Source: a virus
Direction: 5' to 3' (one strand)
DNA length: 56,710 nucleotides
Virus record (IMG/VR): IMGVR_UViG_3300019763_000011
Location: 1-56,710 of that record
Part shown: one piece after another, positions 23,813 through 49,485 of the stretch
Position numbering within the stretch: the stretch's first letter is position 1
Layout of the letters: every line of letters starts with the position of its first letter
Made by a program: the position numbers and the translations under genes
The notes under the pieces: model-generated
What the model was told of the DNA's origin: nothing
The model's input: the letters and a program-made list of their open reading frames with translations, nothing else
Database searches by the model: none

Positions 23813-24082
23813 ATGACAACCTTACAACAAATAAGAAACCTATCTCTTGAAGAAGCAAAAGAATTAATGTGGGGTACATATGGTATCGATGGCAATGATC
23901 CTTTAAAATTCGTTACATTAAACGAATGTGAAACTTCACACCTACACAACATCCACAAAAACATTCTATGTCGTGATACATTAACACCACAAAATATGAA
24001 ATATATTAATGCTGTTGAATTGATCATAGATTCCAGACAACCAAAAGTATTATTGGATGAAGACCTATTTGTTGTCGATTAG
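23813..24082 (+). CDS. LF-tail protein, 89 aa
   Basis: A helical N-terminal half (QQIRNLSLEEAKELMWG) and a His/Asn-rich middle, ending LLDEDLFVVD. This is the first protein in the window with the acidic-acidic-x-LF tail; two extra residues follow. No gene is coupled to it downstream, so the tail is not needed for a ribosome site. It stands alone between two promoters. Function unknown. Confidence 0.65.
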   Translation: MTTLQQIRNLSLEEAKELMWGTYGIDGNDPLKFVTLNECETSHLHNIHKNILCRDTLTPQNMKYINAVELIIDSRQPKVLLDEDLFVVD

Positions 24083-24084
24083 TC

Positions 24085-24113
24085 TTGATCATTCCGAAAT
24101 ATGATGTTACTAT
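24085..24113 (+). promoter_or_regulatory. Sigma70-type promoter
   Basis: TTGATC, 17-nt spacer, TACTAT, 43 nt before the gene at 24157. Confidence 0.5.
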
Positions 24114-24156
24114 GTATTTGTGATTGACACTAACCCCTCTTTTCAGGAGACACAAA

Positions 24157-24582
24157 ATGAAAATTCAAAATATCGATAAGGCAACCGCAGTTATGTTAGG
24201 AGAAGAACTTTTCCAAGCGGCTCAATTGATTGCTCAAAAATATGGGGTTGCTGTTACACGTGGGTCAGGGAAATACAGTGACCTTGAGTATAAAGTAAAC
24301 AGTGTCACTTTCAGTGTCACCGACGAAAACTCTGACTCCAATGATAGTTTCAGTGTGGCTCAGATTCAAAAGATGAAAGACGATTTCACTTTCAAAAAAA
24401 GTCTGGTTGCATTAGATGGGATCGAAGTTGGGGATATCTACTATGATTCCAAACAAGATTCTGACATGAAAGTTCTTGGGTGGGATCGTAAGAAACGTAA
24501 GTATCCTATCTTGGTTGAATGTGTTAACACAAAAACCATCTACAAAATGACTCCTGAATCTCTAAAAATTAAGTTCCTATAG
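24157..24582 (+). CDS. Early protein, 141 aa, function unknown
   Basis: The start at 24157 (MKIQNIDKATAVML) has AGGAGA ahead. The N-terminal third is helical (EELFQAAQLIAQKYGVAV), followed by a beta-rich part (YKVNSVTFSVTDEN) and a C-terminal region with GIEVGDIYYDSKQD that may be a small SH3-like barrel. It does not carry the LF tail (it ends SLKIKFL). First of a run of small early genes. Confidence 0.6.
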   Translation: MKIQNIDKATAVMLGEELFQAAQLIAQKYGVAVTRGSGKYSDLEYKVNSVTFSVTDENSDSNDSFSVAQIQKMKDDFTFKKSLVALDGIEVGDIYYDSKQDSDMKVLGWDRKKRKYPILVECVNTKTIYKMTPESLKIKFL

Positions 24583-24597
24583 AAAGGGATTGACACT

Positions 24598-24813
24598 ATG
24601 ACCGAATTATTACAGTTATTTCAAGTGTTTGAACCATACAGTGTTGTGTTCCTTTCTTATGTGATCATTTATGGAGGTGTTTTTGGTGTCCGAAACACCT
24701 ATTTGAGAATCGTGTCTATTCTAAAACAACGTAAATTAAAACAATCTGATTTCGGTAAACTGCTTGACGGTATCTGGTATTTCTGTTTCCTCGTTCTATA
24801 TGTGATTGGGTGA
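24598..24813 (+). CDS. Small two-span membrane protein, 71 aa
   Basis: Two hydrophobic segments (YSVVFLSYVIIYGGVFGV and GIWYFCFLVLYVIG) flank a basic loop (LKQRKLKQSDFGK). Ribosome site AAAGGGA. Likely inner-membrane; function unknown. Confidence 0.55.
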   Translation: MTELLQLFQVFEPYSVVFLSYVIIYGGVFGVRNTYLRIVSILKQRKLKQSDFGKLLDGIWYFCFLVLYVIG

Positions 24814-24818
24814 ATATT

Positions 24819-25010
24819 ATGAAACAAAATTCAATGAGAGAATTGTATTGGGTGGAAACTAGTCTGGCATTATCACTTAACATTCCAATCTTAGAAAGTG
24901 GTAAGGTTGGAACGGTTGCCGTTAATTACTCACGGATTGACCCCAAATACCGAGAACTGGTTGAACAAAAGGTTTATAGTGGTACACGAAGATCAGCACA
25001 AATGCGTTGA
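24819..25010 (+). CDS. Small protein, 63 aa, function unknown
   Basis: Begins MKQNSMRELYWVETSLALS. A GTG three codons earlier (24810) would overlap the preceding stop and is an alternative start. The C-terminus is basic (KVYSGTRRSAQMR). The next promoter overlaps its end. Confidence 0.5.
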   Translation: MKQNSMRELYWVETSLALSLNIPILESGKVGTVAVNYSRIDPKYRELVEQKVYSGTRRSAQMR

Positions 25011-25035
25011 CTCCTGATTTCTGATGTGAGATAAT
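25007..25035 (+). promoter_or_regulatory. Sigma70-type promoter
   Basis: TTGACT, 17-nt spacer, GATAAT, overlapping the end of the preceding gene and 47 nt before the start at 25082. Confidence 0.6.
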
Positions 25036-25081
25036 GTTTCTGTGGTTAGGGAGAAACAAACAACTCTTGAAAGGATATGAT

Positions 25082-25378: not shown

Positions 25379-25388
25379 GGAGTTTTAA

Positions 25389-25619: not shown

Positions 25620-25621
25620 TA

Positions 25622-28139: not shown

Positions 28140-28499
28140 ATGAAACAATATAAAAGAGATAGACAACTGTTATCAGAAAAGTTTTCTCGTATACCAAAAC
28201 CGATTAAAAATCAAATGTGGTTACGGGCTACAAGAAGAGTTGCACTGGATGTCTACAATTATCATAAAAGAATTGATGACTTCTATTTGTCATGGGATTT
28301 CTTCCTTCGAAATATAACAAACGAACTTGGTGGGGATGAATATAAGGTATACGATACAGTAAAATGTGATGCCTTGGAACTCACTCCATATTATGATATC
28401 TACTTGAAATGTATGTCGAAGTTAAAAATTCTTAAAGAAAAATCTGAGTATCTGAATAAGAATTATATTCCATTAGAAGACGATTTATTTGAGGTGTGA
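28140..28499 (+). CDS. LF-tail helical protein, 119 aa
   Basis: Start at 28140 (MKQYKRDRQLLSEK) after AAAGGTG. The body is basic and helical (NQMWLRATRRVALDVYNYH); the end is IPLEDDLFEV. The last codons GAG GTG are the ribosome site of the next gene, which starts 5 nt further at a GTG. Its body is unrelated to the SH3-like LF-tail proteins, so the tail is a separate module. Confidence 0.65.
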   Translation: MKQYKRDRQLLSEKFSRIPKPIKNQMWLRATRRVALDVYNYHKRIDDFYLSWDFFLRNITNELGGDEYKVYDTVKCDALELTPYYDIYLKCMSKLKILKEKSEYLNKNYIPLEDDLFEV

Positions 28500-28501
28500 T
28501 T

Positions 28502-28753
28502 GTGAAATTTAAAGTTGGTGAAAAAGTTGGTTTCTCTGAAAACTGTATTACCTGTGTATCAAATGGGGAATGGTCGAATGAACCATCAAGATTAGTAAAT
28601 AGAGGATGGGCTATTGTCGTGAGCGGTAAAATGTCAAATTCTAATGAATATTTTGTATATAAATTAGAAGGAGCCCCTCATGGTTGGGCTGAATACGAAC
28701 TTGAGAAATTAAAACCGAAATACAAATTACCTTCTGATTTATTTGAAATTTAA
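28502..28753 (+). CDS. LF-tail small SH3-like protein, 83 aa
   Basis: GTG start at 28502. The opening (M)KFKVGEKVGFSEN recurs in many genes here, as does the pattern VGE-K-V ... W-A-x-V-V-x-G, a small beta-barrel layout. It ends YKLPSDLFEI. The next gene has its own TGGAG ribosome site outside this gene, yet the tail is kept. Confidence 0.65.
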   Translation: MKFKVGEKVGFSENCITCVSNGEWSNEPSRLVNRGWAIVVSGKMSNSNEYFVYKLEGAPHGWAEYELEKLKPKYKLPSDLFEI

Positions 28754-29934: not shown

Positions 29935-30194
29935 GTAAATTTAAAAAATGGTTCTTACGGTCTTTTATCGGTGCCGTTCTCTTTAACAAAAATATCACCA
30001 GAGGTCAAATATACATATTAAGGGGTGGAAGTAACAAAGGTAATCCATTCAGTGATGATAAGAACCATACTGTTGAGATCATTGATGTCAAAGATGGGTT
30101 TGTGAACTATAAGTTTGTGGGTTCTACTATTTTCATTAACGAGTCTATGAAGACAAGTGTATTCAATGGTGTATATCGGTTAACTGATGATTAA
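29928..30194 (+). CDS. Small beta-rich protein, 88 aa
   Basis: A basic N-terminal helix (MLSKFKKWFLRSFIGAVLF) precedes a beta-barrel-like domain (ITRGQIYILRGGSNKG; VEIIDVKDGFVNYKFVG) that resembles the other SH3-like proteins but has no LF tail (it ends YRLTDD). Possible membrane-associated form of the same fold. Confidence 0.5.
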   Translation: MLSKFKKWFLRSFIGAVLFNKNITRGQIYILRGGSNKGNPFSDDKNHTVEIIDVKDGFVNYKFVGSTIFINESMKTSVFNGVYRLTDD

Positions 30195-30462
30195 AGTCGG
30201 TGATAGAATCAGAATCAAACCATATGATGAGGTCAAGGAATATATTATAGAAGATGATTGTGGTGGTATGCATATGACATATGACTTATATGAGGATCTT
30301 CGGCATATGATAGAATACTGTGATCAAATTCTAACTGTATCAGAAATAAAACTTCACCCATTTGTAGATCTTAATGTATATACTACAATTATAGATAGTA
30401 AACGGTTATCATGGTTACCTATGTGGTTTAATCTATACAATGGAGATAGTGATGAAAATTAG
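30187..30462 (+). CDS. SH3-like small protein lacking the LF tail, 91 aa
   Basis: Starts MIKVGDRIRIKPYDEVKEYI in an overlap with the preceding stop. It is a likely paralogue of the protein at 37836 (MYKVGDKIKIKSYKE), which ends EDLFIL; here the end is instead LYNGDSDEN and overlaps the next gene. The tail was probably lost here. Confidence 0.55.
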   Translation: MIKVGDRIRIKPYDEVKEYIIEDDCGGMHMTYDLYEDLRHMIEYCDQILTVSEIKLHPFVDLNVYTTIIDSKRLSWLPMWFNLYNGDSDEN

Positions 30463-30691
30463 ACAAAATAAATTCAATAAAGGTGATAGAGTCGTATGTG
30501 TTGAAGATTACCTCCCATACAGTGGATGTTTTCTTGAAGAAGGATCAGTGTATGTAGTTGATATCGTTGATGAATTTGGTTTTGTTGGATTAAAAGGTGT
30601 AGATGAAGAAGGTGTTACTTGTTGGTCAGATAGTAGATTTGACTTATATTTACCGCCAAATAATTTTAATGAGGATTTATTTATTATATGA
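30452..30691 (+). CDS. LF-tail SH3-like protein, 79 aa
   Basis: Start at 30452 after TGGAGATAG. The body reads KFNKGDRVVCVEDYLPYSG and GSVYVVDIVDEFGFVGLKG, a small beta-barrel pattern. It ends NFNEDLFII. The tail codons supply GAGGA 12 nt before the lpxC start, which overlaps the stop (ATGA). Confidence 0.65.
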   Translation: MKIRQNKFNKGDRVVCVEDYLPYSGCFLEEGSVYVVDIVDEFGFVGLKGVDEEGVTCWSDSRFDLYLPPNNFNEDLFII

Positions 30692-31491
30692 ATCAAAAAA
30701 CTTTAAATAGACGGTGTTGGCGACAAGGGATTGGTCTTCATTCAGGAAGAGAAGTCTCTGTTGAATTAATCCCTCGTCGAATTAATGAAGGAATTAACTT
30801 TTTGGTTAATGGTGAAATTATACCCTTTAATGCTGACAATATAACAAACACAGAATTATCTACTACAGTTGGTGGTCAAGTGTCAACCGTAGAACATTTA
30901 ATGTCCGCTCTTTATATATGTGGTGTCACTAATCTTATTATCAAGGTTGATGGTGATGAAATTCCTGTGCTTGATGGTAGTGCAATTGAATGGGCGAATC
31001 TCATTCGTTCTGTTGGAGTGGTTAGTCAGAATGATGTGGTGGACCAAATCCGTGTAGCAAGAACTCTTGAGGTTACTGATGGTGACTCTTATATAAGAAT
31101 CGTTCCTAATAACAAATTAGTGATTAACTTTTCTGTTGATTTCAAACAACCTATCGGTATCCAACAACACACTCTTTTAAATGAAGAAGATTTCTTTACT
31201 GATATTGCCCCCGCCAGAACATTCGGTTTCCTTGAAGATTTCTCATACCTAAAAGAAAGAGGTTTGGGTTTGGGTGTGTCGTTAAACAATGTTGTTGGAT
31301 TCACCAAATATCAAGTGATGAATAAAGAAGGTCTTAGATTTGACAATGAACCTGTTCGACACAAGATCTTGGACCTCATTGGGGATTTCAGTGCATTAGG
31401 TCGTCCGTTGATAGGATATGTTGAGGCTTATAAATCTGGTCACAAATTAAACCATTTGATGGTGAAAGAGATATTAGACAATGAAATTTAA
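30688..31491 (+). CDS. lpxC: LpxC, UDP-3-O-acyl-N-acetylglucosamine deacetylase, without degradation tail
   Basis: At 267 residues it is shorter than E. coli LpxC (305) but keeps all family motifs. GIGLHSG is at 15-21, STVEHLMSAL near 70 (catalytic Glu and first zinc His), IPVLDGSA follows, then ARTFGFLED (active-site Thr), FDNEPVRHKILDLIGDF (second zinc His and zinc Asp) and YKSGHKLNH (catalytic His). LpxC commits precursors to lipid A. The protein stops about 18 residues after the last motif, so the C-terminal tail by which FtsH degrades the E. coli enzyme is absent. It lies inside an early operon of LF-tail genes and is translationally coupled to both neighbours. This suggests the phage raises or sustains LPS synthesis. 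Confidence 0.93.
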   Translation: MNQKTLNRRCWRQGIGLHSGREVSVELIPRRINEGINFLVNGEIIPFNADNITNTELSTTVGGQVSTVEHLMSALYICGVTNLIIKVDGDEIPVLDGSAIEWANLIRSVGVVSQNDVVDQIRVARTLEVTDGDSYIRIVPNNKLVINFSVDFKQPIGIQQHTLLNEEDFFTDIAPARTFGFLEDFSYLKERGLGLGVSLNNVVGFTKYQVMNKEGLRFDNEPVRHKILDLIGDFSALGRPLIGYVEAYKSGHKLNHLMVKEILDNEI

Positions 31492-31702
31492 AAAAGGTGA
31501 TATCATTGTATGTATCGACAGTGGAAAATTCTCTGATCGGATCACCAACAACAAAGAATATGTTGTATCAAAGTATATGGAACGTATGGATCTTGTTATC
31601 GTTGAAATGGATGATATTGGTAATAAAGAAGTAGGTTGGTTTGATAAAAGGTTTCGACACAAACTACCACAAATACTTGATGAGAGTTTGTTTACATTAT
31701 GA
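31481..31702 (+). CDS. LF-tail SH3-like protein, 73 aa
   Basis: Overlaps the lpxC end. Begins MKFKKGDIIVCIDSGKF; the middle has NKEYVVSKYMERMDLVIVEM and DIGNKEVGWFDKRF, a pattern shared with the next two genes. Ends ILDESLFTL, a variant of the tail. The start of the next gene overlaps the stop. Confidence 0.65.
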   Translation: MKFKKGDIIVCIDSGKFSDRITNNKEYVVSKYMERMDLVIVEMDDIGNKEVGWFDKRFRHKLPQILDESLFTL

Positions 31703-31938
31703 AATTTAAAAAAGGTGATATCATTATATGTACAGAACCACACAGTAACTTTTTGACAGTCGGTGACCTGTATACAATAATTAGGGTGGAAATAACTGAT
31801 TATTGGGGTGATGGTGACGATGTTGAAAGACATGTCATAGTGTTAGACGATAATGGAAATGAATCTGGTTGGTATTTTGATCGATTTGAACTCTATGTCA
31901 AACCATATAATTTAGATGAGGATTTATTTGTGATATGA
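31699..31938 (+). CDS. LF-tail SH3-like protein, 79 aa
   Basis: Paralogue of its neighbours: KFKKGDIIICTEPHSN, GDLYTIIRVEITDYWG, then DDNGNESGWYFDRFELYVKP. Ends YNLDEDLFVI. The tail codons contain GAGGA, 12 nt before the overlapping next start. Confidence 0.65.
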   Translation: MKFKKGDIIICTEPHSNFLTVGDLYTIIRVEITDYWGDGDDVERHVIVLDDNGNESGWYFDRFELYVKPYNLDEDLFVI

Positions 31939-32183
31939 AATTTAAAGAGGGTGATATTGTTATCTGTCTCAATGAATTCAGTATCAATGGAATCAGTAAC
32001 ATTGTGACAAAAGGAAACTTGTATACAGTACTTCGGGTTGAATTGACCGTATATCAAAACGGTGTTAATGAATACTCTATTTTTGTGATAGATGATCGTG
32101 GTAATGAAACTGGTTGGATGTTTGATCGATTTGAACTCTATGTAAAACCAAACAACTTTGACGATGATTTGTTTGTATTATGA
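31935..32183 (+). CDS. LF-tail SH3-like protein, 82 aa, last of its operon
   Basis: Paralogue of the two preceding genes (KFKEGDIVICLNEFS; GNLYTVLRVELT; DRGNETGWMFDRFELYVKP). Ends NFDDDLFVL. No gene follows, and the codons GACGATGAT no longer form a ribosome site although the amino-acid tail is intact. Confidence 0.65.
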   Translation: MKFKEGDIVICLNEFSINGISNIVTKGNLYTVLRVELTVYQNGVNEYSIFVIDDRGNETGWMFDRFELYVKPNNFDDDLFVL

Positions 32184-37137: not shown

Positions 37138-37338
37138 ATGTTATCAAATGAAACTGTTCGTGCTCTTGCTACTGCTCTCCGTTACTATGTACTATATGAA
37201 AGATCTAATCCAGAAGTCGGTATGGGTCCATCATTACCATGTCAAACCTCTGATATTCTTATTACTTCACAAATTGATGACACTAACGAAAATCGAACTC
37301 AAGTCATGACGGCTTATAATGAAAGATGGTCACGATGA
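37138..37338 (+). CDS. Small protein, 66 aa, function unknown
   Basis: ATG at 37138 after AAAGGAT. Helical start (MLSNETVRALATALRYYVLY) and a Thr/Asn-rich end. First gene of the five-gene operon that otherwise encodes LF-tail proteins; its stop overlaps the next start. It lacks the tail itself. Confidence 0.55.
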   Translation: MLSNETVRALATALRYYVLYERSNPEVGMGPSLPCQTSDILITSQIDDTNENRTQVMTAYNERWSR

Positions 37339-37592
37339 ACAAATTTAAAGTAGGGGATATCGTAAAAGTTAAACAGAATCTTACTGAGGTTGAGGGCAAA
37401 TTTGGTGTCATTGACCGTATGAGAGAAATGTCTGGAAATACATTTACTATATCTGAAGTGGTTGAACATTTTAACCCTCCAAGTAAATGCTCATATTCTT
37501 TAGATGGAGTGTCAAATCTTGGTTGGTACGATGAGTGGTTAGAACTATATGTTGAACCTGTCAAACTACCAGAGGATCTTTTTATATTATGA
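37335..37592 (+). CDS. LF-tail SH3-like protein, 85 aa
   Basis: Start at 37335 overlaps the preceding stop. MNKFKVGDIVKVKQNLTEVE, then KFGVIDRMREMSGNTFTIS and LGWYDEWLELYVEP, a beta-barrel pattern. Ends VKLPEDLFIL. GAGGA in the tail codons lies 12 nt before the next, overlapping start. Confidence 0.65.
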   Translation: MNKFKVGDIVKVKQNLTEVEGKFGVIDRMREMSGNTFTISEVVEHFNPPSKCSYSLDGVSNLGWYDEWLELYVEPVKLPEDLFIL

Positions 37593-37843
37593 ACAACTTT
37601 AAAGTAGGGGATAAAGTTTGTGTCAAGACAGATTATACAAATGAATATATGAATCCTAATAGTAGCCAATATAATAAAGAAAATAGTTTTCTGACTCATC
37701 ACGGTCAACACCCATTCTATACCATATCTAGTATATCTGATTGTGGTAATTTTATTAGATTCAATGACTATGATAATGGATGGTCTAAAATCGTTTTTGA
37801 GTTATATAAAGAAACTTTTGATGAGGAGCTTTTTCATGTATAA
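37589..37843 (+). CDS. LF-tail SH3-like protein, 84 aa
   Basis: MNNFKVGDKVCVKTDYTNEY, then HPFYTISSISDCGNFIRFND, the pattern shared with the protein at 38126. Ends ETFDEELFHV; the codons GAGGAG serve as ribosome site for the gene starting at 37836. Confidence 0.65.
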   Translation: MNNFKVGDKVCVKTDYTNEYMNPNSSQYNKENSFLTHHGQHPFYTISSISDCGNFIRFNDYDNGWSKIVFELYKETFDEELFHV

Positions 37844-38129
37844 AGTCGGTGATAAAATTAAAATTAAATCTTATAAAGAAATACATTCTCTATTGGAATT
37901 CGATAGTGACGGTGACGGTTTTACTAATACCATTCATTTTAATGAAGAAAGAATGAAGAATGCCTGTGGTAAGACATTAACAATCATTAAAATAAGACCT
38001 TCTCCTGATGACCCTAATATTATATTATATGTTGCTCCAGTAAATGGTGATGAGTGGTGTTGGATTAAAGAATGGATCGAACCTTTTATCGAACCTGTTA
38101 AACTACCAGAGGATTTATTCATATTATGA
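37836..38129 (+). CDS. LF-tail SH3-like protein, 97 aa
   Basis: Starts inside the previous tail codons. MYKVGDKIKIKSYKEIHSLL marks it as a paralogue of the gene at 30187; the end WIEPFIEPVKLPEDLFIL is nearly the same as that of the gene at 37335. GAGGA 12 nt before the next start. Confidence 0.65.
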   Translation: MYKVGDKIKIKSYKEIHSLLEFDSDGDGFTNTIHFNEERMKNACGKTLTIIKIRPSPDDPNIILYVAPVNGDEWCWIKEWIEPFIEPVKLPEDLFIL

Positions 38130-38350
38130 TATTCAAAAAAGGGGATGTAGTTGTGATTGACGAAAATACCAAATATGGTTTTTATAAAATGAAACTTAAT
38201 CATCTTGTGGGTAAACCTCCGTATACCATATACAGTATATCAGAGAATGACCGTATCAAATTCTCTAAATTCGGTGACTCTTATCCTAATGACATGTTTG
38301 TATCATGCACTCAACCGATTCAACTTGATGATGACCTTTTTCAAATTTGA
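38126..38350 (+). CDS. LF-tail SH3-like protein, 74 aa, last of its operon
   Basis: MIFKKGDVVVIDENTKYGFY, then PPYTIYSISENDRIKFSKFG. Ends IQLDDDLFQI with codons GATGATGAC, which do not form a ribosome site; no gene follows. A further case of the tail kept without the coupling function. Confidence 0.65.
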   Translation: MIFKKGDVVVIDENTKYGFYKMKLNHLVGKPPYTIYSISENDRIKFSKFGDSYPNDMFVSCTQPIQLDDDLFQI

Positions 38351-41959: not shown

Positions 41960-42262
41960 TTATACCTCAAAGAGATCATTGGGTAGATTGTTAATAGAAG
42001 GATCAATGAGAATGGTAGCATATTCATCGTAGTTGAGTGAGTGTTGTTGATGATCTTTGAAACGATTGTGATCAATGGATGTATGTTCAGTAGGATGTAC
42101 AACTTTCATATTAATTAAGTCATATTCATATTTAGCGTTAGATAATTGAATGATAGCATTGAAAGGGATTCTGTTGTTATCTTCGGAGTTATGAATAGTG
42201 ACGAGAGTTCCAATAGGGAGATATTGTAATAGTTTTTTATTATATTGTTGTTTCATGGTCAT
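41960..42262 (-). CDS. LF-tail array protein, family P, 100 aa (last of the array)
   Basis: Family P pattern: a basic Gln/Asn-rich start, LPIGTLVTIHNSEDNNRIPF, a strand, VVHPTEH, then DHNRFKDHQQHSL and an ending NNLPNDLFEV. It is the most distal gene of the leftward array; nothing follows, yet tail and even GAGGTATAA codons are unchanged. The conserved H-x-R-(Y/F)-x5-H element suggests a ligand or metal site. Function unknown. Confidence 0.65.
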   Translation of the reverse strand: MTMKQQYNKKLLQYLPIGTLVTIHNSEDNNRIPFNAIIQLSNAKYEYDLINMKVVHPTEHTSIDHNRFKDHQQHSLNYDEYATILIDPSINNLPNDLFEV

Positions 42263-42264: not shown

Positions 42265-42543
42265 TTATACCTCAAAGAGATCATTGGGTAGAGAAGAGTT
42301 AATGGTAGCATATTCGTTCTCATTAAGAGAGTGTTGGTTATGTTTTTTAAAACGACTGTGATTGATAGTTGTGGGTTCAGTAGGATGTACAACTTTCATA
42401 TTAGAGTGGTCGTAACTGAATTCAATGATAGCTAATTGAATGATAGCTTGGAATGGTTGATCATTGTTATCTTCGGAGTTATGAATAGTGACGTGTGTGC
42501 CAATAGGTAGATCTTGTAATTGTTGTTTATTATATCGTTTCAT
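42265..42543 (-). CDS. LF-tail array protein, family P, 92 aa
   Basis: Closest to the gene at 41960: LPIGTHVTIHNSEDNNDQPF, VVHPTEPTTINHSRFKKHNQ, ending SSLPNDLFEV. Starts a few nucleotides after the preceding stop, with GAGGT from the preceding E-V codons as ribosome site. Confidence 0.65.
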   Translation of the reverse strand: MKRYNKQQLQDLPIGTHVTIHNSEDNNDQPFQAIIQLAIIEFSYDHSNMKVVHPTEPTTINHSRFKKHNQHSLNENEYATINSSLPNDLFEV

Positions 42544-42545: not shown

Positions 42546-42830
42546 TTATACCTCAAAGAGATCATTGGGTAGATTGTTAATAGAAGGATCAATGAGAATA
42601 GTAGCGTATTCATTGGGTTCTAATAAGTGTTGATTATATTGAGTAAAGGTATGATGAGAAAGCATGATACCGACATCAGGGTTAATAGCCCGAGAATTGT
42701 TACCGTATACCAAAGAGTCTTGAGATATTTGAATGGTTCCATTGAAAGGAGTAGGGTAAAAGTCAGAGTTATGAACAGTGACGTGAGTTCCAATAGGGAG
42801 ATCATCAAGGTTATGGTATCGTTTATTCAT
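42546..42830 (-). CDS. LF-tail array protein, family P, 94 aa
   Basis: LPIGTHVTVHNSDFYPTPF, a strand with DSLVYGNNSRAINPD, then SHHTFTQYNQHLLEPNEYA, ending NNLPNDLFEV. The Arg of the H-x-R element is changed to Thr here. Junction identical in type to the rest of the array. Confidence 0.65.
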   Translation of the reverse strand: MNKRYHNLDDLPIGTHVTVHNSDFYPTPFNGTIQISQDSLVYGNNSRAINPDVGIMLSHHTFTQYNQHLLEPNEYATILIDPSINNLPNDLFEV

Positions 42831-42832: not shown

Positions 42833-43099
42833 TTATACCTCAAAGAGATTGTCATCAAATAGGTTCGTCATTTTTGTTATGCCAGTTTTTGTTATGCCAG
42901 TAATTCTACATTCAGGTGTCCAATGAGTTCCATAGAATGTGAATCTGCTGTGTCTTAGGTTATGGTTATTGTCAATAGGTTTAGTGCAATACCCAATAGC
43001 AGTGCTAGAGTTTTCAAATCCAACAATTCTTACATTGAATGAATGATTGTCATGTTGTATTGTAACTAAATCGTTCACCTTATATTTGTGGTTATTCAT
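42833..43099 (-). CDS. LF-tail array protein, family Q, 88 aa
   Basis: Different body from family P: YKVNDLVTIQHDNHSFNVRI, then VGFENSSTAIGYCTKPID and HSRFTFYGTHWTPEC, ending LFDDNLFEV. It retains the H-x-R-F-x5-H element. A 94-nt stretch is identical to the gene at 43366, so one was copied from the other recently. Contains a short duplicated GITKTGITK. Confidence 0.65.
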   Translation of the reverse strand: MNNHKYKVNDLVTIQHDNHSFNVRIVGFENSSTAIGYCTKPIDNNHNLRHSRFTFYGTHWTPECRITGITKTGITKMTNLFDDNLFEV

Positions 43100-43599
43100 A
43101 GTTATACCTCAAATAGATCATCATCAAATAGTGAGTCATCTAATATAGAGAAGGTTTCTTTGTTAACGACATAGTGTTGTTTATTTTTTTTGTACATTGA
43201 GTGGTCCAAAAAGATATCAGGGTTAATAACTTTAATATTAGAGTTAGGAACAAATTGGACCGAACCATTGAAAGGTTTATAATCGTTATACTCAGAGTTA
43301 TGAATAGTAACTCTAGTACCAATATGGATATTTTGTAGATGATTAGGTTGATGTTTAATCATTGGTTATACCTCAAATAGATCATTAGGTAAAAGGTTTT
43401 TAGGTAAAAGGTTTTTAGGTTTAACTAATGAGATAACACATTTTTCCGTAATCCAATGAGTTCCATTTAATTTATATCTGGGATGGTCAAGTTTATGGTT
43501 ATCATCAATAGGTTTAGTGCAATACCCAATAGCAGTGCTAGAGTTTTCAAATCCAACAATTCTTACATTGAATGAATGATTGTCATGTTGTATTGTAAC
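42973..43599 (-). repeat. 94-nt perfect repeat shared by two array genes
   Basis: Positions 42973-43066 and 43506-43599 are identical, 533 nt apart, covering the central part of the two family Q genes; flanking sequence is more diverged. A recent conversion or duplication event within the array. Confidence 0.85.
43102..43362 (-). CDS. LF-tail array protein, family P, 86 aa
   Basis: IHIGTRVTIHNSEYNDYKPF, VINPDIFLDHSMYKKNKQHY, ending SLFDDDLFEV. The Arg of H-x-R is Met here. Lies between the two family Q genes, so P and Q alternate in this part of the array. Confidence 0.65.
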   Translation of the reverse strand: MIKHQPNHLQNIHIGTRVTIHNSEYNDYKPFNGSVQFVPNSNIKVINPDIFLDHSMYKKNKQHYVVNKETFSILDDSLFDDDLFEV

Positions 43600-43632
43600 A
43601 ATATCATTCACCTTATATTTGTGAGTATTCAT
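43366..43632 (-). CDS. LF-tail array protein, family Q, 88 aa
   Basis: Near-identical to the 42833 protein over the first 45 residues (YKVNDIVTIQHDNHSFNVRI), then DHPRYKLNGTHWITEKC. The end has a duplicated KNLLP unit (LLPKNLLPNDLFEV), a small in-frame tandem duplication that lengthens the linker before the tail. Confidence 0.65.
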   Translation of the reverse strand: MNTHKYKVNDIVTIQHDNHSFNVRIVGFENSSTAIGYCTKPIDDNHKLDHPRYKLNGTHWITEKCVISLVKPKNLLPKNLLPNDLFEV

Positions 43633-43634: not shown

Positions 43635-43901
43635 TTATACCTCAAAGAGATCATTAGGTAAAGGGTTAATGATCGTAAAAGATTCATTATCACTAAGGAA
43701 ATGTTGTTTATTATTTTGGTAACGAGGATGATCTAATTGTACATCAGGTCTAACCAAGTTAATCTTATGTAGAGGATCTTTAGATAATTCAACAGTTCCA
43801 GAGAAAGGAATGCCATCATTATATTCAGTATTGGAAATATTGATACGAGTACCAATAGGAAGATTTTGAATTAGATCATTAGGTTTATGTTTATCAGACA
43901 T
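43635..43901 (-). CDS. LF-tail array protein, family P, 88 aa
   Basis: LPIGTRINISNTEYNDGIPF, VRPDVQLDHPRYQNNKQHFL, ending NPLPNDLFEV. Its middle (VQLDHPRY) also resembles family Q at 43366 (KLDHPRYKL), a sign of exchange between families. Junction ribosome site from the upstream E-V codons. Confidence 0.65.
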   Translation of the reverse strand: MSDKHKPNDLIQNLPIGTRINISNTEYNDGIPFSGTVELSKDPLHKINLVRPDVQLDHPRYQNNKQHFLSDNESFTIINPLPNDLFEV

Positions 43902-43904: not shown

Positions 43905-44177
43905 TTATACCTCAAAGAGATCATTAGGTAAATGGTTAATGATCGTAGCATATTCATCTTCACATATTTGGTGTTGTTTGTTTGATCTGTATCTGCCGTG
44001 GTCAATGAATACATCAGGGTTAATGACTTTGGTTTTCGATTCAGATATTTTTGTAGAGAATTGAACAGTGCCCGTGAAGGGTTGATTGTTATTATATGTA
44101 GTGTCATGGATAGTAACACGTGTACCAATAGGAAGATTTTCAATAGATTGTTGATTATAATGTTTATTCATGTTCAT
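43905..44177 (-). CDS. LF-tail array protein, family P, 90 aa
   Basis: LPIGTRVTIHDTTYNNNQPF, then VINPDVFIDHGRYRSNKQHQ, ending NHLPNDLFEV. A typical family P member with all conserved elements. Confidence 0.65.
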   Translation of the reverse strand: MNMNKHYNQQSIENLPIGTRVTIHDTTYNNNQPFTGTVQFSTKISESKTKVINPDVFIDHGRYRSNKQHQICEDEYATIINHLPNDLFEV

Positions 44178-44179: not shown

Positions 44180-44458
44180 TTATACCTCAAAGAGATCATC
44201 AGGTAAGTTGTTACATTCGTAATTGATTATAGAGAAATATTCACCATGGCACATAAAGTGTTGTTCGTGTATTCTATAGCGATCGTGTGATATTATAACG
44301 TGTTCATCAGGTTTAATAACTTTTTGGTTACGTTCATTACGGTCTAAGGATAGTTCTACCGTGGCATTAAAAGGTTTTCTATTATTGTATACCGAGTTAT
44401 GAATAGTAACACGAGTACCAACATTTATAGATTGTAATTCTTCAGGGAGAAGTTTCAT
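44180..44458 (-). CDS. LF-tail array protein, family P, 92 aa (first of the array)
   Basis: INVGTRVTIHNSVYNNRKPF, VIKPDEHVIISHDRYRIHEQ, then CNNLPDDLFEV. Its start overlaps the stop of the LPD29-type gene by one nucleotide, so the array of nine is expressed from the promoter at 44915-44942. Confidence 0.65.
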   Translation of the reverse strand: MKLLPEELQSINVGTRVTIHNSVYNNRKPFNATVELSLDRNERNQKVIKPDEHVIISHDRYRIHEQHFMCHGEYFSIINYECNNLPDDLFEV

Positions 44459-44871
44459 TATTTAACCAAACGGTAAGGTTTATTCCAAGTACCGATATTA
44501 ATATCAATGTATCGTGAACGGTGGAAGTAGTCAGTCATAGAGTCATCGTTATTGAAGTAACCTTCCCCCTTCATAGCTTCGTGAAGTTCGTTAAGAACTT
44601 TGGCAAATTTGGGAGAGAAAGTGGAGTCAATATGATAGACATTAACATTGATATTGTCAGTAGTAGTGTAAGGAGTTTCCCCGCGACGAACAGCGTTATA
44701 AGCCGATACTTCATTATAGTCAGTGAGGAAGTCCATGTAACCAGCGGCAATTTTGAGAACAAGAGTAGATCCGTTATGAACAGAGAGAGTACCCTTTAGT
44801 CCATTTTTGGAAAGAATGGCTTTGACTATAGGAGCGACAGCTTTTTTATCATCTTGAGATACATAAGCCAT
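44458..44871 (-). CDS. LPD29-type phage protein, 137 aa
   Basis: Begins MAYVSQDDKKAVAPIVKAIL, then GLKGTLSVHNGSTLVLKIAAG, INVNVYHIDSTFS, and the signature end MTDYFHRSRYIDINIGTWNK. This matches the family described as large polyvalent protein-associated domain 29, widespread as single proteins in phages and plasmids; its role is unknown. It heads the nine-gene array behind its own promoter. No LF tail (ends PYRLVK). Ribosome site GAAAGGA. Confidence 0.75.
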   Translation of the reverse strand: MAYVSQDDKKAVAPIVKAILSKNGLKGTLSVHNGSTLVLKIAAGYMDFLTDYNEVSAYNAVRRGETPYTTTDNINVNVYHIDSTFSPKFAKVLNELHEAMKGEGYFNNDDSMTDYFHRSRYIDINIGTWNKPYRLVK

Positions 44872-44945: not shown

Positions 44946-45197
44946 TTAAATAGTGAATAAGTCATTGTCAAGAATATGTATAGGTTTAGTGATATTGTCT
45001 AATGCAAGGTGATCTTCACAGTAAGAGTTGGATGATCCGGTATCCCATTGTACCTTATAATTAAGTCTACCAGAATTATCGTCTTCAATAATAGTGCCAA
45101 CAACCTTACCATATTTACCTCCATACTGAGGGTTGTTGATGTGGTCAGAATACTCATCTGTAATCAGTCTTACTCTATCATATATTTTAAATTTCAT
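44946..45197 (-). CDS. LF-tail KOW/SH3-like protein, family S, 83 aa
   Basis: MKFKIYDRVRLITDEYSDHI, then YGGKYGKVVGTIIEDDNSGR and YKVQWDTGSSNSYCEDHLAL: the G-x-V-x-G ... Y-x-V-x-W pattern of KOW/SH3-like barrels. Paralogue of the gene at 46203. Ends ILDNDLFTI; last gene of its sub-operon, with tail codons that form no ribosome site. Confidence 0.65.
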   Translation of the reverse strand: MKFKIYDRVRLITDEYSDHINNPQYGGKYGKVVGTIIEDDNSGRLNYKVQWDTGSSNSYCEDHLALDNITKPIHILDNDLFTI

Positions 45198-45200: not shown

Positions 45201-45593
45201 TTATACCTCAAAGAGATTATCGTCAAAGGATGATTTCAAGTAAGTATCAACTTTATTACATACATCAACAGGAGCGTTACGTCGAGTATTGGTTATGTAA
45301 TCAATGAAGTCATATTTATTTTCGGATGAATTTAAGTTTCTAACGAATACCCCTCTCATGATATAGGCAACAGGTTTGATAAATTCCATTTCAAAGTGAT
45401 GGAATGGGTCACCAAATTCATAAATATCGTATCCATGACCAAAACTATCATGTCCAAGTCGAATGAATCTGTTATCAGGTGACAGAGAAGTGATCATATA
45501 AGGAGGTTCACCATATCGGTCAAGGTGTTCTTTGGCATTTTGTGTTCTACCTGTCAATACTTGAACATAGTCACCTACTTTAAATGGATTCAT
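45201..45593 (-). CDS. LF-tail SH3-like protein, 130 aa
   Basis: MNPFKVGDYVQVLTGRTQNA, PPYMITSLSPDNRFIRLGHD (compare PPYTIYSISEN in the 38126 protein), then an added C-terminal half with YDFIDYITNTRRNAPVDVCN. Ends SSFDDNLFEV. So the rightward and leftward LF-tail genes share body families as well. Confidence 0.65.
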   Translation of the reverse strand: MNPFKVGDYVQVLTGRTQNAKEHLDRYGEPPYMITSLSPDNRFIRLGHDSFGHGYDIYEFGDPFHHFEMEFIKPVAYIMRGVFVRNLNSSENKYDFIDYITNTRRNAPVDVCNKVDTYLKSSFDDNLFEV

Positions 45594-45595: not shown

Positions 45596-45922
45596 TTATA
45601 CCTCAAACAGATCATTGTCAAGAAATTGTGGTTTAGTGATTACAATGAAGCCATAGTCAACTTTCTGTTTATATTTCTGACAGTACATCATTAGTATTTC
45701 CATATCATTATCTAGTTTAATGGCGTATACAGTATCACGACTGAATTCATGTTGACTACTGTTAATAATAACACCAGTTAGTCCAACCAAATTTTCAGAG
45801 TCACTATACCCACTAACATAGTTTTTCAATTGAAGTTTGTTAGCCATGTCTTGGTATGTTGAGTAGCATTTACCAGTATCAACAATTTCAACATGGTCAC
45901 CAATTTGTGGATCTTTATTCAT
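45596..45922 (-). CDS. LF-tail protein, family R, 108 aa
   Basis: Family R pattern: DPQIGDHVEIVDTGKCYSTY, QDMANKLQLKNY, GLTGVIINSSQHEFS, then DYGFIVITKPQ and the end FLDNDLFEV. Shared with 46451 and 46801. Beta-rich with one helix; function unknown. Confidence 0.65.
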   Translation of the reverse strand: MNKDPQIGDHVEIVDTGKCYSTYQDMANKLQLKNYVSGYSDSENLVGLTGVIINSSQHEFSRDTVYAIKLDNDMEILMMYCQKYKQKVDYGFIVITKPQFLDNDLFEV

Positions 45923-45924: not shown

Positions 45925-46200
45925 TTACACCTCAAATAATTTATCATCGGTGAAGTCATTGATATTATATCGTTGACCTTTCCAAGTGTTATAGTTTTCG
46001 TTACGGCATTCAATAGGTACGTAATTTTCGATATACTGAATATGGTCATTCCAAAATGGTTTGATCATAGGATGTGCGTGTAACAGTGCTTCATCATATC
46101 GACCACGTAATAATAATTCAGTACAAGAACCAGCAGGGATACCGTGTTCTATCCACATATCAATAGCACTAACAATATTATCATCAACACATAGATTCAT
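45925..46200 (-). CDS. LF tail added to a widespread small phage protein type, 91 aa
   Basis: The body (IDMWIEHGIPAGSCTELLLR, GRYDEALLHAHPMIKPFW, IQYIENYVPIECR) looks like the common small phage protein with a (Y/F)-x-x-x-GI-P-x-G-(S/G)-C/F core and an A-x-x-x-A-H/D segment. That family normally ends soon after this region; here NINDFTDDKLFEV is added. A natural case of the tail fused to an otherwise ordinary protein. Confidence 0.6.
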   Translation of the reverse strand: MNLCVDDNIVSAIDMWIEHGIPAGSCTELLLRGRYDEALLHAHPMIKPFWNDHIQYIENYVPIECRNENYNTWKGQRYNINDFTDDKLFEV

Positions 46201-46202: not shown

Positions 46203-46445
46203 TTATACCTCAAATAAGTCATCATCAAAAAGAGGAGGTTGGATATCCAATACCAGATCTTTATCACAATAATTGTTGTACCTGTCATCCGTCCACTTAA
46301 CATTATATACGAATTGGCTATCTCCATCATTAATTGACGTAATCTCACCAACAACATTTCCGTGTTTGCCGCCATATAATGGATTATTTGAAAGGTCACC
46401 ATACTTACCACTAACATATCTTACTTTGTCACCTAATTTAAACAT
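46203..46445 (-). CDS. LF-tail KOW/SH3-like protein, family S, 80 aa
   Basis: Start at 46445 (MFKLGDKVRYVSGKYGD), 9 nt after GAGG of the upstream E-V codons; an ATG at 46454 overlaps the stop but is too close to that site. YGGKHGNVVGEITSINDG and YNVKWTDDRYNNYCDKDLVL match the gene at 44946. Ends PLFDDDLFEV. Confidence 0.65.
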   Translation of the reverse strand: MFKLGDKVRYVSGKYGDLSNNPLYGGKHGNVVGEITSINDGDSQFVYNVKWTDDRYNNYCDKDLVLDIQPPLFDDDLFEV

Positions 46446-46450
46446 AATTA

Positions 46451-46798
46451 TCATACCTCAAAGAGATTATCATCAAAAAGATTGGGAGTTGAAGTGACAA
46501 TGAAACCACGATTTTGTTCCCCATAAGTATACTCGTATCCGATAATAATATCAATAGGATTATTATCATCAAGTATGAGTCTGACACCATATACCATTCT
46601 ATTTTCTTCTTGTAGGTGTTTGCCTTTTGCGACGATCACTCCTACCATACCTTCTTTGATTATATCACTACCAACAACTTTCATAAAATTAAAATATTCC
46701 AATTTAAGATTGATAGCCATTTCAAAGTAGCTGGGATATATCTCACCAGAATTGGTAATTTTTACATTATCGCCAATTTGTGGTTCTCTGTCAGTCAT
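46451..46798 (-). CDS. LF-tail protein, family R, 115 aa
   Basis: EPQIGDNVKITNSGEIYPSY, FEMAINLKLEYFNF, GMVGVIVAKGKHL, then NRGFIVTSTPNLFDDNLFEV. Middle-diverged paralogue of 46801, with an identical GFIVTSTPN before the tail. Confidence 0.65.
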   Translation of the reverse strand: MTDREPQIGDNVKITNSGEIYPSYFEMAINLKLEYFNFMKVVGSDIIKEGMVGVIVAKGKHLQEENRMVYGVRLILDDNNPIDIIIGYEYTYGEQNRGFIVTSTPNLFDDNLFEV

Positions 46799-46800: not shown

Positions 46801-47100
46801 TTATACCTCAAATAGTGAGTCATCTAATATATTGGGAGTTGAAGTGACAATGAAACCACGATCTGATTCATCTGCACTGTAACCCATTAAAATATCAGTA
46901 CCATTTTGTAATCGTATACCGTAAATTAACTTTCCTGTATCAGATCCAGAAATAACACCAATTTCTCCGTTCTTGGTGGTTAAATTAGATATGTAATTGG
47001 TAAGATTCAGTTTATCAGCCATTAATTGGTAAGTGGTATATTGTCTGCCATTGTTGGTGATTTTGACACTATCACCAATTTGTGGGAAATTTGTATTCAT
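46801..47100 (-). CDS. LF-tail protein, family R, 99 aa
   Basis: FPQIGDSVKITNNGRQYTTY, QLMADKLNLTNY, GEIGVISGSDTGKL, DRGFIVTSTPNILDDSLFEV. First LF-tail gene of this sub-operon, behind the zinc-protein gene and the promoter at 47388. Confidence 0.65.
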   Translation of the reverse strand: MNTNFPQIGDSVKITNNGRQYTTYQLMADKLNLTNYISNLTTKNGEIGVISGSDTGKLIYGIRLQNGTDILMGYSADESDRGFIVTSTPNILDDSLFEV

Positions 47101-47102: not shown

Positions 47103-47357
47103 TTATACCTTACCCTTTGCCATAGATTTGAAACCTTCACTAATTAATTTCATCCGTGATGGTGTGTAATTACTGCAACCGAAGTCGTGATTAATACTTG
47201 ATGGGTGTGTTTCAACTCTATCCATCAATGTAATTTTTTCACCTTCTACTGGGCAATGAGTGATTTTGGTTTGTTGGTGATTACATTTAACAAGTTTACT
47301 GTCAAACATATTCCGACTTAACCATTTACAATCTTTACAAAATATTTTTGGTTCCAT
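47103..47357 (-). CDS. Small Cys/His-rich protein, 84 aa
   Basis: IFCKDCKWLSRN, LVKCNHQQTKITHCPVEG and HDFGCSNYTPS give about seven Cys and several His, a pattern seen in small phage zinc proteins. First gene of the leftward operon. Ends in a basic helix (SEGFKSMAKGKV), without LF tail. Confidence 0.6.
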   Translation of the reverse strand: MEPKIFCKDCKWLSRNMFDSKLVKCNHQQTKITHCPVEGEKITLMDRVETHPSSINHDFGCSNYTPSRMKLISEGFKSMAKGKV

Positions 47358-47387: not shown

Positions 47388-47416
47388 ATATTACAGTAGG
47401 TGGTATGATGAGTCAA
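47388..47416 (-). promoter_or_regulatory. Sigma70-type promoter for the family R/S operon
   Basis: TTGACT, 17-nt spacer, TAATAT, 31 nt before 47357; its -35 overlaps the last codons of the HNH gene. Confidence 0.65.
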
Positions 47417-47667: not shown

Positions 47668-47673
47668 TAAGAT

Positions 47674-47702
47674 ATTATAGTATGTGTGTCACTTAATGTC
47701 AA
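47674..47702 (-). promoter_or_regulatory. Consensus sigma70 promoter of the HNH gene
   Basis: TTGACA, 17-nt spacer, TATAAT: full match to the consensus. Expected transcription start at about 47667, the A of the ATG. Confidence 0.75.
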
Positions 47703-48512
47703 TTACTCGTTAATCATTTCGTCTAATAGTTTTGTTTTAACCACACTGGTATAGATATCATATCCAACAAGTATAGAGTTACCATCTGTCCAACATTCTC
47801 TATCATCATTCTTTGGTAATGCACCACCAGCAACGATTAGCTTGAATTTATAAGGTTTGAGTATTTCGTTCAACATTTCGGAACATGATTTATCGTGATC
47901 AACCATATATGTCAACAATTGATTTGATGTTTTATTAAAGAATTCTATTCTGGCATCACTATTCATATTTGCCCACATTTCATCGATACGCATAACAGAA
48001 TCTCTAAGAGTATTCCAATCTTTGGCAATGTATTTCTTTTCACCTATGAGTCTATTATATAGTTCAGACAGTTCATAGTTAACATCAGCAATAGTGGTAT
48101 AATATCCTTTGAAACTATCCCAGAAATCACTAGCAGGGCATAATCCAATAGAAGAATTATCATAAGGTAGTACAAGGTATCGTTCATCCATAGTGCCATA
48201 TGCCCCATCAAGACTACTTGAGCATATAAGTGATTGACTTCTTTTAGGAAATTTAGACCATTGTTTTGAGTTATCTATCCATAGAGTATAATGATTATCA
48301 GTATTTGCTGATTTTCTATTGAATTTGGATGGTTCAACATAACCGAAGTCACTACGAATAGACACATGACCTCTAAATAGACCTTGTTTATCTTCTGTGA
48401 ATCGTCTCCATGCTTTACGACAGTTTTTCTTGATGATTTGTGCTGCTTCATCCATGTTAACGACTTTGGTTCTACCTTCTTTTGATTCTGATATAAACGA
48501 TTGTAATCTCAT
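47703..48512 (-). CDS. ADP-ribosyltransferase-like protein, clade B, with leader (269 aa)
   Basis: The leader is MRLQSFISE. Clade B blocks follow: GLFRGHVS (Arg motif, near residue 45), SANTDNHYTLWIDNSKQW, then QSLICSSSLDGAYG with YLVLPYDNSSIGLCP (Ser motif), and near the C-terminus RECWTDGNSILVGYDIY, the likely Glu motif. The same order occurs at 52966, 53890 and 56049. A late TATAAATA motif lies 31-38 nt upstream. Packaged enzyme is predicted; target unknown. It is the only member of this group on the minus strand. Confidence 0.65.
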   Translation of the reverse strand: MRLQSFISESKEGRTKVVNMDEAAQIIKKNCRKAWRRFTEDKQGLFRGHVSIRSDFGYVEPSKFNRKSANTDNHYTLWIDNSKQWSKFPKRSQSLICSSSLDGAYGTMDERYLVLPYDNSSIGLCPASDFWDSFKGYYTTIADVNYELSELYNRLIGEKKYIAKDWNTLRDSVMRIDEMWANMNSDARIEFFNKTSNQLLTYMVDHDKSCSEMLNEILKPYKFKLIVAGGALPKNDDRECWTDGNSILVGYDIYTSVVKTKLLDEMINE

Positions 48513-48542
48513 TGAATAATATTCTCCTGTGTGGTATACTAT

Positions 48543-48550
48543 TATTTATA
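48543..48550 (-). promoter_or_regulatory. Putative late promoter TATAAATA, leftward
   Basis: Exact octamer 31 nt before 48512. It directly abuts the -35 of the rightward early promoter at 48551. Confidence 0.5.
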
Positions 48551-48579
48551 TTTACAGTGATAATTTATGGTGTTATATT
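48551..48579 (+). promoter_or_regulatory. Sigma70-type promoter, rightward
   Basis: TTTACA, 17-nt spacer, TATATT, 20 nt before 48599. Confidence 0.55.
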
Positions 48580-48598
48580 ATAGGAAAAGGGGGTATAT

Positions 48599-48877
48599 AT
48601 GTCGTTCAAAGAGGGTGATAGTGTTAGGTTACTTCTGTGTAAAGATATGAATGTATCTTTACGTACTGAGTGGGCTGAGTGGTGGAAGAAAAACAAAAAT
48701 ACAGTATTCACTTTATCGGAATATCGGACAAATGGTAATTGGTTTATGAAATATCCTAATGGTGATACTGTGTATAATCTACGTGGTGGTGGTGATGACC
48801 CAATAACATTTAATCATACAGAGATATATGTATGTAATCCACCTATTAAATGGGAAGAGGATTTATTTGAGATATGA
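48599..48877 (+). CDS. LF-tail SH3-like protein, 92 aa
   Basis: MSFKEGDSVRLLLCKDMNVS, then NTVFTLSEYRTNGNWFMKYP. Trp-rich centre (EWAEWWKKN). Ends IKWEEDLFEI; GAGGA in the tail codons is the ribosome site of the next, overlapping gene. Confidence 0.65.
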   Translation: MSFKEGDSVRLLLCKDMNVSLRTEWAEWWKKNKNTVFTLSEYRTNGNWFMKYPNGDTVYNLRGGGDDPITFNHTEIYVCNPPIKWEEDLFEI

Positions 48878-49230
48878 TTAAATATTATGCACTAAATGAT
48901 GATAATATAGCAGTTGAGTGTAATATGGAGTATGCACTACTTTGTGGTACAGAGGATCTTGTTAGTAATATCATTCAACAAACAGATGTTAGTGATGGTT
49001 TGATGGTATCAACAATATTCTTGGGAATGGATCATTGTTTTGGTGGTAGTGAATCAACACCTTTGTTGTTTGAGACAATGTTGATGGGTAACACAGAAGA
49101 GGAAGAAGTATGTGTTAGATATGAAACATATGTTCAAGCAGTGGAAGGTCATTGGAATATGGTCAAAAGATATGGTGGTTCAAAACCAGTGTCGTTACCA
49201 TTGTTAGATGATAATCTGTTTATCTTATAG
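48874..49230 (+). CDS. LF tail added to a widespread phage protein type, 118 aa
   Basis: The body MVSTIFLGMDHCFGGSES, LLFETMLMGN, EEVCVRYETYVQAVEGHWNM belongs to the common phage family with a T-x-F-L-G-x-D-H-x-F-G core, an ETM segment and a closing A-x-x-G-H helix. Here the helix is followed by an extra KPVSLPLLDDNLFIL. No gene is coupled downstream and the tail codons are not a ribosome site. It ends in a 6-nt convergent overlap with the next gene. Confidence 0.7.
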   Translation: MIKYYALNDDNIAVECNMEYALLCGTEDLVSNIIQQTDVSDGLMVSTIFLGMDHCFGGSESTPLLFETMLMGNTEEEEVCVRYETYVQAVEGHWNMVKRYGGSKPVSLPLLDDNLFIL

Positions 49231-49485
49231 GGTGAACAGATCATCTTTGAAATGATTTGGTTGGTATTCACATAGATCAGTACAGTCATCTTTATCTAAG
49301 AATTGGTTTACCACATCCCATGTCATTTTATGTGTAATATTATCATCTAATGAGACAAACTCAATATGTTGTCGTATACAATCATTCATTACGCACACCC
49401 ATATAATGGGATCGTTAACTTCTGCCGAGTCAATCTCAATATATTGTTGTCCTCTAATAAAGTCTTTTGCCTTAGTCATTTTCAT
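49225..49485 (-). CDS. LF-tail protein, 86 aa
   Basis: MKMTKAKDFIRGQQYIEIDS, then PIIWVCVMNDCIRQHIEFVS, ending NHFKDDLFTL. Barrel-like strands again, with three Cys. Last gene of its two-gene unit, convergent with 48874; tail codons form no ribosome site. Start overlaps the upstream stop. Confidence 0.65.
   Translation of the reverse strand: MKMTKAKDFIRGQQYIEIDSAEVNDPIIWVCVMNDCIRQHIEFVSLDDNITHKMTWDVVNQFLDKDDCTDLCEYQPNHFKDDLFTL

Follow-up and report, generated by a model that had tools for sequence, protein, structure and literature searches.

The viral DNA analysed here, IMG/VR record IMGVR_UViG_3300019763_000011, comprises 56,710 nucleotides (nt) and is referred to throughout as the window. 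Thirty small proteins encoded within it finish in a common acidic-hydrophobic C-terminal tail built around an invariant Leu-Phe core, and tails of the same kind, worded differently from phage to phage, are found on unrelated proteins of related phages. The best reading of this tail, and quite probably the right one, is that it serves as a modular address by which proteins dock on one co-evolving hub protein. The window and all its relatives are metagenomic fragments, and the window phage is labelled G000.

A common C-terminal tail on thirty small proteins

An earlier note on this DNA had listed thirty tailed open reading frames (ORFs). Their translation confirmed that all of them end in the described tail and that every stop position, 13 on the plus strand and 17 on the minus strand, was correct (Table 1). 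The six-position motif proposed there holds as a core; its length does not, since eight positions are obtained once the upstream hydrophobic residue is counted, the full motif being [L/F]-[D/P/N/E]-[D/E/N]-[D/N/E]-L-F-x-[V/I/L]-COOH. The L and F of the core are invariant in 30 of the 30 window tails, and the hydrophobic position four residues before this L is occupied by L (19 tails), F (9), W (1) or T (1). The tail ending at 24082 carries one extra final residue (LDEDLFVVD), and in that of the minus-strand gene ending at 49225 a K replaces the first acid (FKDDLFTL). In four ORFs (28140, 30452, 37335 and 37836) translation probably begins further downstream than the first start codon. Judged by gene size and clustering, the tailed genes may be expressed early, as the earlier note supposed. 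Many small window proteins, but not all, carry the tail, and tail-less genes share clusters with tailed ones (e.g., 30187-30462, 44458-44871 and 47103-47357). The protein encoded by the first of these is SH3-like and paralogous to the tailed 37836 protein; without a tail of its own (it ends NGDSDEN), it provides a natural control from the same genome. The stops of two convergent tailed genes overlap at 49200-49252, where the DNA of the two tails makes up an imperfect palindrome (GATGATAATCTGTT...AACAGATCATC).

Chance as the origin of the shared tail was ruled out by control ORFs and column-shuffled sets. The 8-mer pattern stands at the C-terminus of 21 of the 114 window genes and of none of 9,514 ORFs from 80 control viral contigs, and a single one of 14,877 ORFs from 80 unrelated viral loci matched the core pattern. 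When the terminal 7 residues of the 114 window genes were compared without any preset pattern, the best window tail had 20 near neighbours, versus at most 4 in 100 column-shuffled sets. Moreover, all six Leu codons are used in the tails (TTA 9, CTC 9, CTA 4, CTT 3, CTG 3 and TTG 2), as are both Phe codons (TTT/TTC) and both Asp codons (GAT/GAC). Because the codons vary while the residues stay, the tail is conserved at the protein level.

When the last ten residues were removed and the bodies compared by blastp/phmmer (E<0.01), nine sequence families were obtained, although a later, slightly different run gave 11. They consist of 12 SH3/KOW-like proteins, 9 proteins centred on IGTxVTIHN, 3 proteins of the GxxYSSYxxMA type and six singletons; the earlier note had counted at least seven unrelated groups. 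In the AlphaFold model of the SH3 body the predicted local distance difference test score (pLDDT) is approximately 90, falling to approximately 55 in the last 13 residues, and confidence in the model of the 48874 body is high up to about residue 100, the tail block scoring 54. The tail is thus predicted to lie outside the folded domain in both models and, because this low-confidence segment follows a confidently folded body, it may be viewed as a docking motif on a linker. The SH3/KOW-like barrel model resembles the KOW domains of DSIF, kin17 and NusG (Z of about 7-8, for a common small fold) and also matches YorP of Bacillus. A Foldseek search with the 48874 body returned no convincing match, Pfam and PHROGs assigned no function to the tailed bodies, and among solved structures a search with the tail sequence retrieved only de novo TIM-barrel helices (E 0.1 or worse).

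One word per phage in the relatives

A 70-kb IMG/VR relative, G001, was found through a window protein (67% identity over that protein). Of its four tails, one belongs to a homolog of the 48874 protein and two to homologs of the YSSY family. The major capsid protein of G001 is T4-like, with about 35% identity to cyanophage gp23, and an IMG/VR scan with this protein gathered the clade, made up of contigs of up to 235 kb, twelve of which were examined as overlapping pieces. Locus L325, on a contig assigned by binning to Candidatus Izimaplasma HR2, includes a capsid gene with 88% identity to its G001 counterpart, which may reflect a host link or contamination. Approximately 17 tails were counted in G003 (235 kb), 14 in G008 (204 kb), 4 in G004 and 1 in G005, and 16-17 proteins of G012 bear a long form ending DVDELFKEIEI. 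This long dialect (IIDVDELFKEIEI) lies at L318 5610-9099 and 17752-19995 and at L319 982-1848, with the short form DELFEL alongside. The earlier note had tied its claim to enrichment in relatives once paralogy is removed; the tail does recur there, the 69 tailed proteins of five phages taken together falling into 35 body families, and the 17 tailed proteins of a sixth phage come on top of these.

The tail is modular and is appended to bodies. The 48874 body is widespread, with 538 confirmed stretches in IMG/VR, and among its homologs in the fetched loci only 1 of 82, that of G001, bears the tail. Likewise, DUF932-like proteins are tailed in G003 and G004, and their homologs in the tail-less phages G010 and G011 end without it. 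Paralogy alone is ruled out as an explanation by the nine families of the window, the 35 families of the five phages and the tail-less 48874 homologs.

Each phage uses its own dialect, such as DDDLFEV, PEDLFIL, PEELFKM or DVDELFKEIEI. A single SH3 body family illustrates this, ending DDDLFEV in G000, PEDLFIL in G003, PEDMFKM in G008 (whose tails use LF as well as MF) and DVDELFKEIEI in G012, and the tail is present on 17 of the 17 members found. When each family was represented once per phage, tails on unrelated bodies resembled each other more within a phage than between phages by 5.2 BLOSUM units (null 0.04, standard deviation 0.59; 0 of 300 shuffles reached this value). Together, the statistic and the SH3 family indicate that one word is used per phage on many bodies and that homologous bodies switch word with the phage. 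An IMG/VR search with body family A1 recovered no relatives, and one with two exact DNA tail patterns found an isolated gene family and no tail cluster. In the literature on shared C-terminal phage tails nothing relevant was found among open-licence papers, which is weak evidence.

Proposed docking on a common hub

The usual marks of a short linear docking motif, namely unrelated bodies, a disordered context and a conserved short core, are all present (35 families; tail pLDDT of about 55). In the proposed mechanism, the eight-residue acidic-hydrophobic peptide, held at the C-terminus by a flexible linker, would act as such a motif; as the common ending of many small, unrelated proteins in a phage, it would lead all of them to the same groove, and this groove would belong to one hub protein. 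The hub, as reader of the tails, would be expected to co-evolve with them, and the most likely option is a phage-encoded protein gained, lost or altered together with the tails. If docking does occur, a dedicated phage protein, or one not yet singled out, is the leading though tentative choice for the reader, and host machinery (RNA polymerase, the beta clamp or a protease adaptor) is possible but less likely; phage gp32 or its partners would be an unlikely reader, and the phage clamp a slightly weaker choice again. A broader proposal, that this T4-like lineage runs a protein-addressing code with one C-terminal word per phage, a co-evolving phage hub, drift of dialects and loss of the whole system, seems to us evenly poised. 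The earlier note had suggested docking on one hub, perhaps the clamp, a polymerase or a protease adaptor; the shared tail on unrelated bodies speaks for the docking, and the clamp no longer stands as the favoured hub.

Most small phage proteins have neither an assigned function nor detectable kinship, and one shared partner may reveal what dozens of them do. Were the hub phage-encoded, it would give the virus a new means of assembling or dispatching many effectors via one site; were it a host protein, the tails would mark a heavily targeted weak point. If the reading is true, each dialect should bind its own hub and not those of other phages.

Several observations weigh against docking on one hub. 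No shared tail above the null was detected by the last-7-residue test in G006, G007, G010 and G011, which are large relatives, indicating that the system is not essential to the lineage; the same held for the metagenomic LR756508 and for the portion of Agrobacterium phage Atu_ph07 that was read. In G004, G005, G009 and G012 the tails are few or off the strict pattern. A presence/absence screen for a receptor gene in tailed and tail-less phages, run on fragmentary records, yielded no outstanding candidate, its output consisting mainly of head-region and tailed families. Within-phage likeness could stem partly from gene duplication or 3'-end conversion, though codons vary and bodies are unrelated, and docking itself is something that we infer from the sequence pattern alone. 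In G009 a seven-member family (L310 2598-4909, minus strand) has the degenerate ends ILKEFSII, ILKEFNVEL and DKELFTL, and is perhaps a decaying or a third dialect.

Alternative explanations of the tail

Among the alternatives, recruitment of the small proteins to a sliding clamp, either phage gp45 or the host beta clamp, survives best, although we regard it as unlikely. T4 offers the precedent: gp43, gp55 and gp33 bind gp45 through interchangeable hydrophobic-acidic C-termini, which are, like the tails, short peptides on a flexible linker that give several proteins one address (PMC2988020). The likeness ends with the carriers, since in T4 three replication and transcription proteins have such peptides and here dozens of small proteins do. 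Furthermore, gp43 and gp55 of T4 end SLDFLFG and SLDFLYEAND, and in the tailed clade the polymerases have an FF-type peptide of their own. The phage clamp was initially attractive as the hub because of Atu_ph07, a distantly related T4-like phage, in which the polymerase finishes in ISDDFADLFGF and two DNA methylases finish in GNDLFSF and PDGLFEF, all of them likely clamp-type tails (split polymerase and two methylases at L149:4277-5530 (-), L147:7763-8545 (-) and L153:11592-12350). This candidate was weakened by the clade's own DNA polymerases, whose ends (...QAFNFFFGG in G003, ...QAFNAFFG in G005 and ...CFDIFF in G008) are unlike the tails (DLFxV/I/L/M). The FF-type end is present in the tail-less G006 (...TMSLFFGE) as well as in G008 with its divergent dialect, so that it remains constant while the tails change dialect or vanish. 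Tails sharing the polymerase's pocket should follow its peptide, yet they do not, and the clamp is therefore disfavoured. In addition, no such tail is present on the clade's gp55 homologs. A search of the clade for the gp45 family recognised the domain only in the tail-less G002, in which three proteins including gp43 (L032) end L[DE]xFF (SLDNFF, SLESFFGE and TLEIFFG), probably a set of clamp tails in a tail-less relative.

As for the host clamp, its binding motif Q-aliphatic-x-[L/M][F/L] has an [L/M]F dipeptide in common with the tails (PMC11139829), which show LF at positions 4-5 in 30 of 30 window cases and LF or MF in G008; both are often C-terminal and frequently have a D right before the dipeptide. 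However, in their residues the tails depart from this motif by lacking the Q, by an acidic rather than aliphatic second position and by the added x-[VILM] end. None of the 30 window tails has a Q at position 1, where the residue is D, P, E, N or K, and replacing the Q with Glu, Ala or Gly greatly weakens beta-clamp peptide binding (PMC11139829).

The tail might instead mark the small proteins for degradation or shield them from it, their lifetime being set by a protease adaptor of host or phage origin that reads this signal; this too is improbable. Its strictly C-terminal position, as one address on unrelated bodies, would suit such a signal, and a phage-specific adaptor would account for the dialects. 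No adaptor gene was identified, however, and in G012 up to five further residues follow the LF core, which makes the exact end variable. Acidic C-terminal residues tend to block, not to promote, recognition by ClpXP, which counts against a degradation signal.

Mimicry of the acidic C-terminal tip of gp32 or of the host single-stranded DNA-binding protein (SSB), with docking on gp32 partners or in the gp32 cleft, is a still less probable explanation. The SSB/gp32 tip resembles the tail in being a partner-docking end with an acidic run followed by hydrophobic residues at the extreme C-terminus, and gp32 homologs of the clade do have acidic-hydrophobic tips (DDTDALLAELSDM, SEEDLLKELENL and DDDDILDELDKMLG), the second of which is similar to the long dialect DVDELFKEIEI of G012. 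Nevertheless, that tip occurs once per genome, on SSB itself and without the invariant LF, and the tail is found on dozens of proteins. The gp32 tips, from which the invariant F of the tails is missing, are also present in tail-less phages, and their changes do not track the tail dialect (LLAELSDM vs PEDLFIL in G003). The gp32 homologs that were read end DALLAELSDM, LLKELENL and the like, with no LF and no dialect matching the tails, which weighs against this mimicry.

A spreading genetic cassette, in which a 3' coding segment was copied by recombination, hitch-hiking on small genes, and is not a binding motif, appears very improbable. The near-identical tail DNA of the minus-strand operon, with CTACCCAATGATCTCTTTGAGGTATAA repeated, would fit such copying. 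Against this, the same residues are written in divergent codons across families and the residue classes are kept across phages whose capsid proteins differ by 20-45%, both of which argue for selection on the peptide.

The weakest explanation, hardly credible, is that the tail merely reflects the Shine-Dalgarno (SD) site and the start of the next gene, a possibility raised by the earlier note, and as the sole cause this was rejected because of convergent and terminal tailed genes, in the window and in relatives, and of variable codons. The overlap is real: F-E-V is encoded by TTTGAGGTA (SD GAGG) in the minus-strand operon, E-D by GAGGAT in ATGA overlaps and K-E by AAGGAG in G012. Nonetheless, the SD position shifts among the codons of the same peptide, the L and D codons are variable, and six window tails, ending at 32183, 38350, 41960, 44946, 49225 and 49230, have no co-directional gene within 25 nt. 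The same is true of 10 tailed genes out of 12 in G003 and of 9 out of 14 in G008. In the downstream-gap table of the window, the gaps at 43102 and 44180 are inflated, the neighbours being missing from the non-overlapping gene set. Thus, where operons are tight, the tail also encodes the ribosome site, which biases residue choice but does not create the motif, accounting only for the E/K after F or the E-D before L.

Positions of the tailed genes

Table 1. Tailed genes of the window and positions of the N-terminal tag.
Feature	Position	Strand	Tail	Remark
Tailed gene	23813..24082	+	LDEDLFVV-D	One residue longer; no tight downstream gene
Tailed gene	28140..28499	+	LEDDLFEV	Start corrected from TTG 28035; FEV codons GAGGTG overlap next gene
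SH3-like	28496..28753	+	LPSDLFEI	SD located after stop
SH3-like	30452..30691	+	FNEDLFII	ED codons GAGGAT = SD of next gene
SH3-like	31481..31702	+	LDESLFTL	
SH3-like	31699..31938	+	LDEDLFVI	
SH3-like	31935..32183	+	FDDDLFVL	No co-directional gene downstream
SH3-like	37335..37592	+	LPEDLFIL	
SH3-like	37589..37843	+	FDEELFHV	
SH3-like	37836..38129	+	LPEDLFIL	
SH3-like	38126..38350	+	LDDDLFQI	No co-directional gene downstream
IGTxVTIHN family	41960..42262	-	LPNDLFEV	Final gene of its operon
IGTxVTIHN family	42265..42543	-	LPNDLFEV	
IGTxVTIHN family	42546..42830	-	LPNDLFEV	
Tailed gene	42833..43099	-	FDDNLFEV	
IGTxVTIHN family	43102..43362	-	FDDDLFEV	
Tailed gene	43366..43632	-	LPNDLFEV	
IGTxVTIHN family	43635..43901	-	LPNDLFEV	
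IGTxVTIHN family	43905..44177	-	LPNDLFEV	
IGTxVTIHN family	44180..44458	-	LPDDLFEV	
SH3-like	44946..45197	-	LDNDLFTI	74 nt to next gene; tail without SD
SH3-like with extension	45201..45593	-	FDDNLFEV	
GxxYSSYxxMA family	45596..45922	-	LDNDLFEV	
Singleton	45925..46200	-	TDDKLFEV	
SH3-like	46203..46454	-	FDDDLFEV	Body model = SH3/KOW barrel; tail of low confidence
GxxYSSYxxMA family	46451..46798	-	FDDNLFEV	
GxxYSSYxxMA family	46801..47100	-	LDDSLFEV	
Singleton	48599..48877	+	WEEDLFEI	
Widespread body family	48874..49230	+	LDDNLFIL	Convergent with 49225; nothing downstream
Singleton	49225..49485	-	FKDDLFTL	Convergent with 48874
N-terminal tag	14205, 18958, 19518, 47703(-), 50973, 51620, 52966, 53890, 54734, 55312			

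Other features of the window

A separate N-terminal sequence, M[RK][LF]xxY[IL]xE, is found on unrelated proteins (nine window proteins by pattern) and also elsewhere in the clade. No protein with both this N-terminal tag and the C-terminal tail was found in the 17 genomes or fragments examined, and the lineage may use two separate addresses, one at each terminus, with functions that we infer for both. In T4, a capsid-targeting sequence at the N-terminus of internal proteins directs them to the head. The tail is comparable to it in giving many unrelated proteins of a phage a single short address at one terminus; the T4 sequence differs in being N-terminal and head-directed, and it is the clade's own N-terminal tag that has a similar look.

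A group of apparent paralogs occupies 20440-21450, 49942-50973, 50973-51623, 54734-55315, 52966-53862, 53890-54729 and 47703-48512 (minus strand). Two of the group, which has 7 places in the jumbo phage Atu_ph07, match phrog_11975, and by eye these proteins look like ADP-ribosyltransferases; Pfam gave no match for four of them.

Within a tailed gene cluster, 30688-31491 encodes LpxC, a lipid A deacetylase (Pfam E 1e-88), and a phage-encoded LpxC suggests a Gram-negative host. A phage GroES (Cpn10, E 2.7e-29) is encoded at 12318-12623 on the minus strand, and a PAS-GAF protein with homologs in G003 and G004 lies near the structural genes (8958-10040, minus strand). The segment 38820-41960, about 3 kb and mostly non-coding, contains one GIY-YIG endonuclease gene, long inverted repeats, a DnaA-box-like TTATCCACA on the reverse strand at about 39985 and, at its left edge, 41-nt repeats ending TTTCAACGTTTCCGGATA; it is a candidate origin or control region. 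Finally, the minus-strand gene at 2847-8447 encodes a 1,866-residue protein with long GDVTGNVTGDLTGNVTG repeats, which is probably a tail fibre.

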